The notes beneath the pieces were generated by a model, which searched no databases, was not told the origin of the DNA, and saw only the letters and a list, made by a program, of their open reading frames with translations. A DNA stretch of 48,313 nt from Deltaproteobacteria bacterium (lineage in GTDB: Bacteria > Myxococcota > XYA12-FULL-58-9 > JABJBS01), in assembly GCA_018668695.1 (NCBI GenBank), contig JABJBS010000233.1, positions 1 to 48,313 of the forward strand, written 5' to 3'. Below, piece by piece: positions 1-5,254 of the stretch; within the stretch, counting starts at the first letter, position 1, and the number at the start of each line of letters is the position of its first letter. The position numbers were made by a program, and so were the translations under genes.

Positions 1-706
1 GAGTATTATCGGTTACGCCGAAATGCTACTTGATGGCCTCGCTGGAGATCTCAATCAAGACCAAGGCAAGTATGTTTCAACTGTTTTGGAAAAAGGCGAG
101 AGCTTATTAGGGCTGATTGGCCAAGTTTTAGATTTATCGCGGATTGAGTCAGGAAATGTGGTTCTCAAGCGCGAGGTCAGCGATCCGCGGGAGATCATTG
201 AGCGCAGTGTTTCTGATGTATTGCCGCAATCTAAAAAACGCGATTTGGATATTGCGCTGGAAATCGATGAATCAGTCTTGCCGGTTAATGTGGATAAAGA
301 CAAAGTCCGCCGTGTGGTAACAAATCTCTTGGGCAATGCTGTTAAATTTTCAAAGCAAGGCAGTACCATTGTGGTTCGCGCGCGCTCCTGTGAATTGGAG
401 GATGCAGCCCAACCTTTTGACGTCTTTGAGCCCGAGCGAAATAGAGCCTTAGAGATATCCGTGACGGATGAAGGCATGGGTATCGCGAAAGATGCATTAG
501 AGAGAATCTTTGATTCATTTTACCAAGTAGACAATACCTCAACGCGTGAATTTGGCGGAACCGGATTGGGCTTGGCGATTGTTCGCAACTTTATGCGCGC
601 TCACGCAGGTGATGTGGAAGTGAGAAGTGAAGTTGGAGTGGGAACTACATTTACCATTCGCCTACCTTACAATCAGGAAGAGGCCGGCACTGTGGCCGGC
701 GCATAA
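1..706 (+). CDS. Sensor histidine kinase, 3' part (gene enters from the left edge)
   Basis: This is the C-terminal part of a membrane- or cytosol-based sensor kinase that autophosphorylates on histidine and passes the phosphate to a response regulator. The reading frame is open from base 2, so the true start lies outside the window; the Met at base 23 is internal (the preceding residues SIIGYAE are typical of the end of HisKA helix 1). The phospho-accepting His is therefore just upstream and not seen. The second HisKA helix ends near DLSRIESG. The HATPase domain is complete: N box NLLGNAVKFS, G1 box DEGMGIAKD, F box FDSFYQVDN and G2 box FGGTGLGLAIV. The protein ends soon after the ATPase fold, so no receiver domain follows. 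Its partner regulator and signal cannot be read here. It is convergent with the minus-strand Psp-like operon, only 4 bases away. Confidence 0.93.
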   Translation, partial: SIIGYAEMLLDGLAGDLNQDQGKYVSTVLEKGESLLGLIGQVLDLSRIESGNVVLKREVSDPREIIERSVSDVLPQSKKRDLDIALEIDESVLPVNVDKDKVRRVVTNLLGNAVKFSKQGSTIVVRARSCELEDAAQPFDVFEPERNRALEISVTDEGMGIAKDALERIFDSFYQVDNTSTREFGGTGLGLAIVRNFMRAHAGDVEVRSEVGVGTTFTIRLPYNQEEAGTVAGA

Positions 707-710
707 GGTT

Positions 711-1241
711 TTAAAGCTTATAGTTCTTGGCGCTTGAAGACGCGTTCGCTTCTGCTTGAGACGCCCAAATGATTTCACATTCTTTACGAAGCCGGTTTAG
801 AAGATCTTCCTGAGGTTTAGACCCCGTTGCCTGAAGCTCGGGCAATGAGGCTATGAGTAACTCCAATTCTTGGTTGCTGTTTTTGTCTTGGTTGGTTTCA
901 ATTGCCATCCATGCTTGGCTCCAGATTTCTTGGCTCAGAACGGGATCGCCTCCTAGTTCCTCAAGTCGCCTTGTATATTTTAGCAATTGCATCAACTGTT
1001 TCTGCTCTTTCGTGTTGAGCTTTCTCTTGATGCCGTGATGCCTCTTTTCCTTTCTTAGAAAGAGTCTTTCTTCGGCATCAGGCGTTTTGTCGACGAATTG
1101 AATCGCTCGATAAATTCCATAGAGAACCAGTGCAACACCCAGCCCTAAGTAAACAGGGCGTAGAATGAACCAAAGTCCGACTCCAAGAGAAGTCAAAGTG
1201 GCAGGGCGCATCAGCGCGTATTGCCAAAGCTGGGCTCTCAT
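711..1241 (-). CDS. Small membrane protein of unknown function, last gene of a Psp-like operon
   Basis: I do not recognise a family. The 176-residue product has a hydrophobic N-terminal stretch (about residues 12-48, one or two membrane helices with a Pro/Tyr kink, FILRPVYLGLG) followed by a charged, helix-rich cytosolic part with KRK/EK-rich segments and an acidic, Gln-rich middle. Its start ATG overlaps the stop of the PspA-like gene by 4 bases (ATGA), so translation is probably coupled. The context (PspC-like, then PspA-like, then this gene) suggests an envelope-stress role, perhaps as a membrane dock for the PspA-like coiled coil, similar in position to PspB-type small membrane partners. 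That role is inference from operon position only; there is no sequence match I can name. Confidence 0.8.
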   Translation of the reverse strand: MRAQLWQYALMRPATLTSLGVGLWFILRPVYLGLGVALVLYGIYRAIQFVDKTPDAEERLFLRKEKRHHGIKRKLNTKEQKQLMQLLKYTRRLEELGGDPVLSQEIWSQAWMAIETNQDKNSNQELELLIASLPELQATGSKPQEDLLNRLRKECEIIWASQAEANASSSAKNYKL

Positions 1242-1990
1242 GAGTGTACCTCTTGAAGCTGAATGCCCAGAGGCGTCTTAAAGGCCGGTGCAACCAGGAG
1301 CTTTGCGTTTTCTTGAGCTTGCATGGCCCGAAACTCTTCTTTGGCCTTCTCTTTATCTTGCTCTTTTCGAAGCGCCGAGATGGACAAAGATTCTACGGGC
1401 TCATGGATTGGCTCTTCAATAAGACCAGCCTTTGCCTCGAGCTCGTCAACGGCGTCGCGAACTCGTCCTAAAGCCGTTTCATCGATTCCCACTTTCATCT
1501 GGCCCTGCAGGGCTTGGGATGCCTGAATGCGGGCTTGAGCGTGCTTGCGCCGCGCCTCTATTTTAGCCTGTTCGGATTTTAGTTCCGTAATACTTTTGGC
1601 CAATTGTTGAAGCCCCTCTTTGGCTGAATCAATTTGCTGTGTGAAGCCGCGGCTTTCAACAGAGCTTGCCTGGATCCCACTTTGCAACGTGGTGCGTTTA
1701 TCAAGCAATTCGATGCCTCTTTCCTCGTCGCCAGTTTTGGCGGCGGTCTTTAAGGCTGCCTCGACAACACTTAAATCTTCTTGAAGCGATAGACCGCGTG
1801 TGTCCGCTTTATTACGAAGAATAATGAGGCGACTCAGGGCAGTCTTTAAATCGTGGTGTTGTTTAACGCGGTCACGAATAGCGTTGTGATAAACAACATC
1901 TGTTCGACCAATTTCGGTTTGGTTCATTTTGACACCGAATAAACCTTGGCAATAACGGATTAGCCTTTGCATGATATTTCCTTCTTTCAT
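1238..1990 (-). CDS. PspA/IM30-like coiled-coil protein
   Basis: The 250-residue product is almost entirely helical coiled coil (about residues 25-190) with a short amphipathic N-terminal segment (MQRLIRYCQGLFG). The heptad pattern and the segment AALKTAAKTGDEERGIELLDK resemble the PspA/IM30 (phage-shock protein A, Vipp1) family, peripheral membrane proteins that assemble into ESCRT-III-like rods and rings and protect the inner membrane. The similarity is distant, and the usual family N-terminus is not conserved. Two starts are possible: ATG at 1990 has AAGGAG 7 bases upstream, and ATG at 1972 also has AAGGA nearby; the first is chosen as stronger. It lies 27 bases after the PspC-like gene and overlaps the next gene. 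A generic coiled-coil protein is the alternative, but the PspC neighbour favours PspA. Confidence 0.72.
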   Translation of the reverse strand: MKEGNIMQRLIRYCQGLFGVKMNQTEIGRTDVVYHNAIRDRVKQHHDLKTALSRLIILRNKADTRGLSLQEDLSVVEAALKTAAKTGDEERGIELLDKRTTLQSGIQASSVESRGFTQQIDSAKEGLQQLAKSITELKSEQAKIEARRKHAQARIQASQALQGQMKVGIDETALGRVRDAVDELEAKAGLIEEPIHEPVESLSISALRKEQDKEKAKEEFRAMQAQENAKLLVAPAFKTPLGIQLQEVHS

Positions 1991-2017
1991 GTCTCTTCTC
2001 CTTCTTTTTTTCTTTGT

Positions 2018-2497
2018 TTAAAGTTCGATTGGGTTTGCGTACTGACCGCTTTGCTCAAGAAGCCGGTCAGACGATGGGATAAAAATTGCAGCTGTTAAGT
2101 AGGCCATGAGCGCCAAGGGTCCCGTGAGGACGACCAGGCTCAAAGCACTTAAGCGGACAATGGTTGGATCCAGTTCCCAGCGTCTGGCGAGACCGCCACA
2201 GACGCCCAGAAATTTTCGGTCCACATCAGTACGCGCGAGCGGAGGATGCTTTTGGCCGTTGGGTCCGTCTATCCAAATCGTTGGTTCGAAGCTTGCGTCG
2301 TCGCTGCGTGGAAGAAGCCACCAAAGTGCAAGATAGAGCAGTGCCCCTGTTCCGAAAACGAGAGTGGAAACCAACCAGCCAAGCCGCAGGAGATTAGGTT
2401 CGATTGAGAATCTCTGACCAAGACCCTCACAAACCCCGCCGAGATAACCGTGGGATGAACGCGCGAGGCGTTGATTACTGAGAGCATTGTGAGTCAT
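2018..2497 (-). CDS. Tandem PspC-domain membrane protein
   Basis: This 159-residue protein carries two PspC-type repeats. The first is near residues 9-64 (LGGVCEGLGQRFSIEPNLLRLGW, then a hydrophobic helix ending ALWWLLPRSDD); the second is near residues 90-143 (FLGVCGGLARRWELDPTIVRL, then a hydrophobic helix ending AAIFIPSSD). PspC proteins are inner-membrane proteins of the phage-shock response that sense envelope stress and contact PspA. Having two PspC units in one chain is less usual than one. The start has AAGGA 8 bases upstream. It is the first gene of a three-gene minus-strand operon and is divergent from an RHH regulator, with a shared palindrome between them. Confidence 0.88.
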   Translation of the reverse strand: MTHNALSNQRLARSSHGYLGGVCEGLGQRFSIEPNLLRLGWLVSTLVFGTGALLYLALWWLLPRSDDASFEPTIWIDGPNGQKHPPLARTDVDRKFLGVCGGLARRWELDPTIVRLSALSLVVLTGPLALMAYLTAAIFIPSSDRLLEQSGQYANPIEL

Positions 2498-2520
2498 GGT
2501 GTGCGTCCTTTGTGTTTTGT

Positions 2521-2536
2521 TGTGTACTTATACACA
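2521..2536. promoter_or_regulatory. Perfect palindrome, probable operator and -10 region of the Psp-like operon
   Basis: TGTGTA-CTTA-TACACA is a perfect inverted repeat with 6-base arms. Read on the minus strand it contains TGTG-TATAAG, an extended -10-like element (TATAAG at 2532-2527) about 29 bases before the PspC start. Twelve bases of this element recur on the plus strand at 2603-2614. It may be an operator, a -10 box, or both. Confidence 0.5.
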
Positions 2537-2602
2537 TGATGACACATCTATGCGGTTCGTCAAGGGTAATCATGGTGTTTACTTTCAATTTTGGATCAAA
2601 AG

Positions 2603-2614
2603 TGTGTATAAGTA
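2603..2614 (+). promoter_or_regulatory. Second copy of the TGTGTATAAGTA element, probable promoter of the RHH regulator
   Basis: TGTGTATAAGTA matches 12 bases of the minus-strand reading of the palindrome at 2521-2536. TATAAG at 2607-2612 lies 24 bases before the regulator's ATG, and TTTCAA at 2583-2588 lies 18 bases upstream as a weak -35. The arrangement mirrors the one on the other side of the intergenic region, as expected for autoregulated divergent promoters. Confidence 0.42.
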
Positions 2615-2636
2615 GGGCGAGATAAGGAGTGTGCAA

Positions 2637-2954
2637 ATGGAAGGTGGTTATAAGCGAGTCAATGTGATGATAGGCGAGGAGCAGTACCGAACCTTGAGCG
2701 AGCAAGGCCTGAATGTAAGCGGTTTAATTAGGGATTTGATTGGCGACCATCTCTCAGAGAACGTGATTACTCTTCAGGTGACAGAGGAAACCAAGCAAAT
2801 TTATGACACTGTCATTTCGAATACTGGATCGGATGATCAGGAGCTGGAATCCCATTTGAGAGTTGCGCTGGCGAGCCTACTGGAAGAGAAAATCGCTGAT
2901 ATGCGGGCTCTTCATCAGAGGTTGGTCGTTGAGGGGAAAACCCCTGACGAATGA
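2637..2954 (+). CDS. Ribbon-helix-helix-type small regulator (predicted)
   Basis: The 105-residue product begins with a segment that fits an RHH (MetJ/Arc) DNA-binding fold: strand KRVNVMI (about residues 6-12), helix EEQYRTLSEQ and helix NVSGLIRDLIGDHL. The rest is acidic and helical, possibly for oligomerisation or ligand binding. The ATG at 2637 is chosen because AAGGAG (2624-2629) is 7 bases upstream; a GTG at 2631 would be only 1 base from that site. It is divergent from the PspC/PspA-like operon, and the two promoters share a palindromic element, so it is a plausible repressor of that operon and of itself. An antitoxin is the other common use of RHH proteins, but no toxin gene is next to it. 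The fold is predicted by eye only. Confidence 0.68.
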   Translation: MEGGYKRVNVMIGEEQYRTLSEQGLNVSGLIRDLIGDHLSENVITLQVTEETKQIYDTVISNTGSDDQELESHLRVALASLLEEKIADMRALHQRLVVEGKTPDE

Positions 2955-3148: not shown

Positions 3149-5254
3149 ATGAGTAGCGTAAAATCAATCAAGCCGGTAACTGAGGGACTAACGGATGCTG
3201 AAAGACTCAGCTTATTCCGAACAATGCTCCTTAGCCGTCGCCTAGACGACGTAGAAATTCAACTAAAACGACAAAATGCCGTATATTTTCAGATCTCGGG
3301 CGCTGGACACGAAGCGACCCAGACTGCGGCAGCCATGACTATGCGTTCTGGCCACGATTGGTTTTTTACCTATTACCGTGATCGAGCTCTTTGTCTTGGG
3401 TTGGGTGTCACTGCGGAAGAAATGCTTTTCCAAAGCGTGGGCGCAGCGGCAGATCCAGCTTCTGGCGGACGTCAGATGCCGAGCCACTGGGGACACAAAG
3501 ACCACAATATTGTGTCTTCCTCGAGCCCTACCGGTACGCAGTTCTTGAACGCAGTCGGTTGTGCTGAAGGCTTCGTAAAGATGCGTGACTTGGATCTCGG
3601 CGAAACACATGGCGACGAAGTCGTTTATGTTTCATCCGGTGAAGGCACGACCAGCCAAGGTGAGTTCTACGAAGCGATGAACACAGCTTGTCAGGATAAG
3701 CTCCCGGTCATTTTTCATATCCAGGATAATGGCTATGCGATCAGTGTACCTGTTGAGTTTCAAACAGCAGGTGGCTCTATCTCCAAGCTTTTCCGCGGTT
3801 ATCCAAACCTCTTGGTATTGGAATTCGATGGCTGTGATCCAGAAGCAAGTTACGAGAACTGGCGTGAAGCGGTAGCCTATGCGCGAGAGCGTAAAGGTCC
3901 AGTATTGCTGCACTCTCACGTGACGCGACCTTATTCGCACTCTATGAGTGATGATGAGCGTTTGTACCGCAGTAAAGAAGAGATTGCTGAGCAGGCTGCG
4001 GCTGACCCGATTACGGTCTATCGCAAGCAACTCGTTCAGGACTTTGGCATCGATGATAACCAGCTACGAACCATCGAAGATGAGATCGAAGCGATTGTAA
4101 CTGAGGCTAAAGAATCAGCGTTGGCAGCAGAGCCGCCGTCACCTGACACGGTTATGGATTACGTGTACTCGCACGATGCAGACCCGACCACTGATGATTT
4201 CGATACAGAAGACGAAGCTGATTTTACCGGCGATCCACGCACGATGGTCGATTTGATCAACGACTGCTTGCACACCGAGATGGAACGAAACCCGGGAATC
4301 GTTATCTTTGGCGAAGACGTAGCGGATGTTTCTCGTGACGAGAACATTGAGAACGTTAAAGGCAAAGGCGGCGTTTTTAAGGTTACAGCTGGTTTACAGC
4401 GTAAGTTCGGTTCGAACCGTGTTTTCAACTCTCCGCTGGCGGAAGCTAATATTATTGGCCGAGCAGTGGGTATGGCGGTTCGCGGACTCAAGCCCGTCGT
4501 TGAGATTCAGTTCTTCGATTATATCTACCCCGCGATGATGCAAATCAGAAGCGAGTTGGCGTTGATGCGCTGGCGCTCAAACAACAACTTTGACTGCCCC
4601 GTTGTTATTCGTACCACTTACGGTGGCTACTTAAAGGGCGGCGCTGTTTATCACTCGCAAACCGGTGAATCGATTTTCACACATATCCCAGGCTTACGCG
4701 TATGTTTGCCTTCGAATGCACTGGACGCCAATGGCCTTCTGCGCACGGCGATTCGTTGTGAAGATCCTGTCTTGTTCCTCGAGCACAAGCACCTTTACCG
4801 TCAGACCTACAATCGTGCTCCTAACCCGGGCGACGATTTTATGATTCCATTCGGCAAGGCCAAGCGCCTGCGCGAAGGTAAGCATCTTACTCTGATTACT
4901 TACGGTGCCTTGGTTAAGCGTTCGTTAGACGCAGTTAACCAGGCGGCTAAAATGGGTATCGAAGTTGAAGTGCTCGACCTAAGAACGATCAGCCCTTACG
5001 ACTGGGAAGCTATCTCTGAGAGCGTGGCGAAAACCGGTAAAGCGTTGGTTGTTTATGAAGACTCATTGAGCTGGGGTTCAGGCTCCGAAATCGCTGCGCG
5101 TATCGGTGATGAACTCTTTGATTATCTTGATGGACCGGTACAGCGCGTTGCGTCGATGGATACTTTCGTAGGTTACCATCCAGGCCTTGAGGACGCGATT
5201 CTGCCACAAGTTCGCGACGTTTTAGCAGGCATCGAAAAACTCCACAGCTACTGA
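3149..5254 (+). CDS. Fused 2-oxoacid dehydrogenase E1 alpha/beta (branched-chain type)
   Basis: This enzyme decarboxylates a 2-oxoacid with thiamine diphosphate and passes the acyl group to an E2 lipoyl protein. Residues about 15-330 are the E1-alpha half: SGAGHEATQ near the start, [14 protein letters not shown], and the ThDP/Mg2+ region from [12 protein letters not shown] to IQDNGYAI. An acidic linker (about 345-365) leads to the E1-beta half: [33 protein letters not shown], and the C-terminal transketolase fold with [11 protein letters not shown]. At 701 residues it equals alpha plus beta in one chain, as in some branched-chain or acetoin-type dehydrogenases of Bacteroidetes and deltaproteobacterial lineages. 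GGAG lies 5 bases before the ATG. No E2 or E3 gene is adjacent, so the complex is assembled from other loci. The substrate (branched-chain versus other oxoacid) is inferred from overall resemblance. Confidence 0.92.

Follow-up and report, generated by a model that had tools for sequence, protein, structure and literature searches.

For Psp modules beyond the well-studied phyla, the regulator is often not known. The locus described here shares with E. coli pspF-pspABC a regulator gene placed opposite the psp genes across a common intergenic control region (PMC11237479). It differs in gene order, pspC preceding pspA, and in the kind of regulator: PspF activates sigma-54 as an AAA+ enhancer-binding protein, whereas the divergent gene here encodes a small CcdA-like ribbon-helix-helix (RHH) protein and the pspC promoter looks to be of the sigma-70 type. 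PspF-type features are absent, as Pfam and NCBIfam detect no AAA+ domain in the divergent gene product, and the sigma-54 signature GG-N10-GC is found in the intergenic region of neither the host genome (G000) nor a relative with the same divergent pair (G007).

A second point of comparison is CcdA of the F-plasmid ccdAB system, whose recognition site, a 6-bp palindrome, follows the –10 of the operon; the likeness lies in an N-terminal RHH matched by the Pfam CcdA family and in a (here candidate) operator following the –10 (PMC3920265). In contrast to ccdAB, the present gene has no toxin gene beside it, differs in its C-terminal half (~60 aa), and is chromosomal and adjacent to pspC. Lastly, some CesT/Tir-PspA operons, with DUF350/DUF4178 genes, have RHH as their last gene (Ravi et al. 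2024, PMC11237479), likewise placing an RHH transcription factor gene in a PspA-containing neighbourhood; here, however, the RHH gene is divergent and linked to tandem PspC rather than to CesT/Tir. In the literature searched, the coverage of which was partial, this was the single paper to bring PspA, PspC and ribbon-helix-helix together, and we found no report closer to a divergent RHH gene with tandem PspC than the latter (PMC11237479).

The tandem-pspC operon and its divergent CcdA-like gene

Gene order and strands within the window (the whole analysed stretch of 48,313 nt) agreed with an earlier sequence-only reading, which had described genes for a tandem PspC, a PspA-like and a membrane protein opposite a small gene. 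For comparison, 195 genomes of the phylum were sampled, 8 of them from the host's order, with G000 the sole representative of its family. The operon's first gene (2018-2497, minus strand) encodes a 159-aa protein with two PspC domains in a single ORF (Pfam PF04024, 117.9 bits, E=1.6e-34), which scores under the cut-off of the equivalog TIGR02978 (72.5 vs 104 bits) and has orthologues of 48-50% identity in G007 and another relative, G004. The second (1238-1990, minus strand) encodes a 250-aa PspA/IM30-family protein that is divergent in sequence: its PspA_IM30 match (PF04012, 37.6 bits) is just above the cut-off of 33.9, its score for the PspA equivalog TIGR02977 is far below (19.9 vs 243 bits), and its identity to PspAs elsewhere in the phylum is 25-29%. 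The third gene (711-1241, minus strand), overlapping pspA by 4 nt at the stop/start, encodes a 176-aa protein whose single hydrophobic segment lies at ~residues 19-41 and whose C-terminal part is charged; for this protein there was no family match over cut-off in Pfam or NCBIfam and no homologue among the relatives' loci compared. An Rfam search of the window returned no matches.

Convergent with the operon lies a histidine kinase gene (2-706, plus strand), of which the contig end leaves only the 3′ part. Relatives of its product, 57% identical and with a PocR sensor domain, occur near tandem pspC in G007 and G002, making three genomes with a PocR-type histidine kinase in this vicinity (window 2-706; L030:1255-3362; L033:7716-9934); in G007 and G002, a small GTPase-like gene precedes it. 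The kinase may be a member of the older neighbourhood.

The divergent gene (2637-2954, plus strand) encodes a 105-aa CcdA-like RHH protein, a probable transcription regulator, with CcdA matches in all three orthologues. Downstream lies a fused two-part 2-oxoacid dehydrogenase E1 gene (3149-5254), and a perfect 10-bp palindrome, TGTACGTACA, occurs between the two (2961-2970), just past the RHH stop codon. Taken alone, the window protein falls short of the RHH assignment made from sequence (15.4 bits against Pfam CcdA, cut-off 22.4; E=0.0049 against NCBIfam CcdA), as does the G004 orthologue (17.4 bits); the G007 orthologue (L004; 62% identical) reaches 27.8 bits, above the curated cut-off, over residues 6-42, the same span as in the window protein. 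Because this orthologue passes, homology supports a CcdA-type RHH in the N-terminal part of the family. AlphaFold models of low confidence (pLDDT 57 and 66; 3 sequences) place helices at residues 14-22 and 27-39, where they are expected, while the strand is not formed in the monomer and the best Foldseek hit has E=6. All three orthologues also conserve the C-terminal ~60 residues, which matched nothing searched; a tandem RHH in one chain, with residues 43-99 as the second copy, was discarded for lack of hhalign support. RHH relatives on plasmids were limited to CcdA at E ~0.7, viral contigs yielded none, and PDB gave no meaningful match. Within the presumed DNA-contacting strand, R7 and N9 are common to all three orthologues.

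An inverted 12-mer pair between the divergent genes

The intergenic region between pspC and the RHH gene spans 139 bp (2498-2636). A scan matched a putative sigma-70-type pspC promoter, TTGACG-N16-CATCAT (2536-2563, minus strand), 38 nt before the ATG; the same layout recurs in G007 (TTGACC-N16-TATCAT, 40 nt before its ATG), and TTGACT occupies a comparable place before pspC in G004. The region also contains two copies of the 12-mer TGTGTATAAGTA, both candidate operators: copy A (2603-2614, plus strand) ends 22 nt before the RHH ATG and copy B (2525-2536, minus strand) 27 nt before the pspC ATG. The sequence-only reading had noted a motif on both strands 24-29 nt before the start codons; what we find is an exact inverted pair, with distances of 27 and 22 nt instead. 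The copies lie 66 bp apart and are the window's sole matches even at two mismatches. An exact 12-bp inverted repeat arose in 0 of 1000 dinucleotide shuffles of the 139-bp region (largest, 11), and the pair is the longest inverted repeat of all intergenic regions of the window (next, 10); it exceeds chance for its region.

The same cannot be said of the 'perfect palindrome' earlier assigned to 2521-2536 (TGTGTACTTATACACA). It is imperfect, consisting of 6-bp arms around a non-palindromic CTTA spacer, and was rejected as standalone evidence because 21% of shuffles of the intergenic region give a similar repeat (6-bp inverted repeat, loop 0-10). Around copy B, a symmetric array, TGTG-N6-TGTG-N8-CACA-N6-CACA (2511-2546), has half-sites every 10 bp, TGTG at 2511 and 2521 and CACA at 2533 and 2543 sharing one common dyad. 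Expected 0.001 times in intergenic shuffles, this array is weak, post hoc evidence, as the whole window holds four such arrangements with any 4-mers.

The first base of copy B is the final one of the putative pspC –10 (CATCAT), and the copy spans the expected start site. Since the promoter TTGAC-N16-YATCAT is kept in place in G000 and G007, copy B comes to lie just after the –10, a position that would suit a repressor site. The TATAAG within copy A is likely the –10 of the RHH gene. Both 12-mers might at least partly be promoter –10s (TATAAG after TGTG), one per divergent transcript, read by RNA polymerase with no dedicated regulator. In each, TATAAG stands 24-29 nt ahead of a start codon, and the RHH gene of G007 has a –35 TTGTCA and, at a similar place, TATATT preceded by TATG. 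However, the pspC promoter conserved in G007 (TTGAC-N16-CATCAT/TATCAT) has its –10 upstream of copy B, no good –35 is found by eye or scan 16-18 nt before either TATAAG, and the 12-base identity between the copies exceeds what a –10 requires, which makes this explanation rather unlikely.

Among relatives, the proposed binding site is conserved in part only: G007 has the same gene order and is without the motif, and G004 has another order and carries it upstream of tandem pspC. The outcome that the sequence-only reading named as a refutation is thus seen in part. The G007 genome holds ten motif matches, none on the contig of the divergent pair. The place similar to copy A reads TATGTATATT there, and the best resemblance (9/13), ATATGTATATTGA before the RHH gene, was dismissed as chance-level (~0.3 per region by estimate). 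RHH position 11 is M in G000 and G004 and T in the motif-less G007, a difference that fits an altered site preference, with three sequences to judge from. In G004, ATGTGTATAAGTA has 28 matches at ≤2 mismatches in 3.4 Mb. Two of these lie upstream of tandem pspC (start 1777), at C19:1665 (+) and C19:1706 (–), with a spacing of 41 bp, and are the only close pair in the 3.4 Mb (0.004 expected in 445 bp; P ~7e-6, or ~2e-4 if AT-rich intergenic DNA is fivefold richer). The G004 contig carrying the RHH gene has no motif copies.

The core of the 12-mer, TTATACACA, is the consensus DnaA box, and DnaA instead of the RHH protein could act on these sites and so link replication with pspC and its neighbour. 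The 5.87 Mb of G000 contain 119 occurrences of TTATNCACA, yet two of them fall within the 139-bp intergenic region; oriC-like boxes, TGTGGATAA, stand upstream of G000 dnaA, and three TGTGNATAA boxes upstream of tandem pspC in G004. However, both window copies combine TTATACACA with an additional GTA flank and so differ from the TTATCCACA boxes upstream of G000 dnaA, which itself sits on a different contig (C348); the second G004 site is mismatched within the box core but retains flanking bases; and G007 has no DnaA-box-like sites. We therefore consider control by DnaA improbable. An oriC in the window was rejected as well, dnaA and its boxes being on another contig and the window showing no GC-skew switch. 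The 48-kb contig as a whole holds six TTATNCACA sites (window 289-45472), compared with the 119 in the 5.87-Mb genome.

The box array does affect how the G004 sites are to be read. Site 1665 comes after two TGTGGATAA boxes resembling the G000 dnaA array, and L032:1643-1674 (G004:C19), upstream of tandem pspC, is the only close trio of TGTGNATAA boxes in G004, whose dnaA (contig C3) has no boxes nearby. Owing to this distribution, G004 may have a replication origin apart from dnaA in the region upstream of pspC, and its value as independent evidence for an RHH operator is reduced. The same intergenic region contains a long inverted repeat, gcgcgggcgagatttgcg / cgcaaatctcacccgcgc, at L032 ~1388-1412 and ~1520-1545, its halves ~100 bp apart.

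Linkage of the RHH gene to tandem pspC

The RHH gene was found in three of the 195 phylum genomes (G000, G004 and G007), all within one order (8 genomes). Tandem PspC in one reading frame, as called from match coordinates, occurs in five (G000, G002, G004, G007 and G186). Thus, three of five tandem-PspC genomes carry the RHH gene as against 0 of the 190 others (P=8e-6, not corrected for descent), the co-occurrence within the host's order amounting to P=0.07; with only three RHH orthologues, these counts are small and not phylogenetically independent. The divergent RHH-tandem pspC pair is present in G000 and G007, which belong to different families. In G004 the two genes are on separate contigs, the RHH gene sitting between a rimO-type gene and E1, in line with both. 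A scan of genome contigs with tandem PspC retrieved only a distant Catenovulum protein.

With the window PspA as query, no match was obtained in G004 or G007, which puts PspA outside the conserved unit. Of the earlier proposal that the RHH protein regulates a Psp operon, the RHH-pspC link is conserved and the PspA part is not: by sequence comparison, conservation extends to the RHH gene together with tandem PspC and not to the PspA operon. That the protein is instead an orphan antitoxin, or a regulator of another gene such as the downstream E1, its adjacency to pspC being incidental, is likewise doubtful: the nearest family is the antitoxin CcdA and E1 follows the RHH gene in both G000 and G004 (E1s 70% identical), but no CcdB-like neighbour was seen in G000, G004 or G007 (the adjacent genes being pspC, the rimO-type gene, the E1 dehydrogenase and unrelated larger ORFs), G007 retains the pspC link with E1 no longer after RHH, and the gene is missing from genomes without tandem PspC.

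A candidate repressor of tandem pspC

We put at roughly even chances that this CcdA-type RHH protein, with no adjacent toxin partner, is a local regulator of tandem pspC, most likely binding TGTGTATAAGTA-type sites and limiting its own synthesis. More tentatively, and somewhat short of even, it could have left its toxin-antitoxin role to become, as a CcdA-type RHH protein, a repressor dedicated to an envelope-stress module with tandem PspC, a control unlike PspF, ClgR or LiaRS. The RHH domain, its linkage to and co-occurrence with tandem pspC, the motif pair and its recurrence in G004, R7/N9/M11 in G000 and G004, and the pspC promoter argue for repression; against it stand the motif-less G007, the low-confidence fold models, the unlinked RHH gene of G004, the number of orthologues (three) and, further, the location of one G004 site inside a DnaA-box-like array.

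From the sequence we infer that the RHH protein would bind the motif and act as a repressor, presumably subject to an envelope-stress signal, and that one regulator could set both transcripts, as the sequence-only reading had suggested. On copy B, directly downstream of the –10, it would keep all three operon genes (pspC, pspA and 711-1241) from being transcribed; on copy A, over its own –10, it would hold down its own production. PspC is a membrane protein and, presumably, would either report stress or cooperate with PspA in membrane repair. If true, the combination of a small RHH repressor with tandem PspC would add a new mode of Psp control, and an antitoxin-type DNA-binding domain would be employed in ordinary stress regulation.
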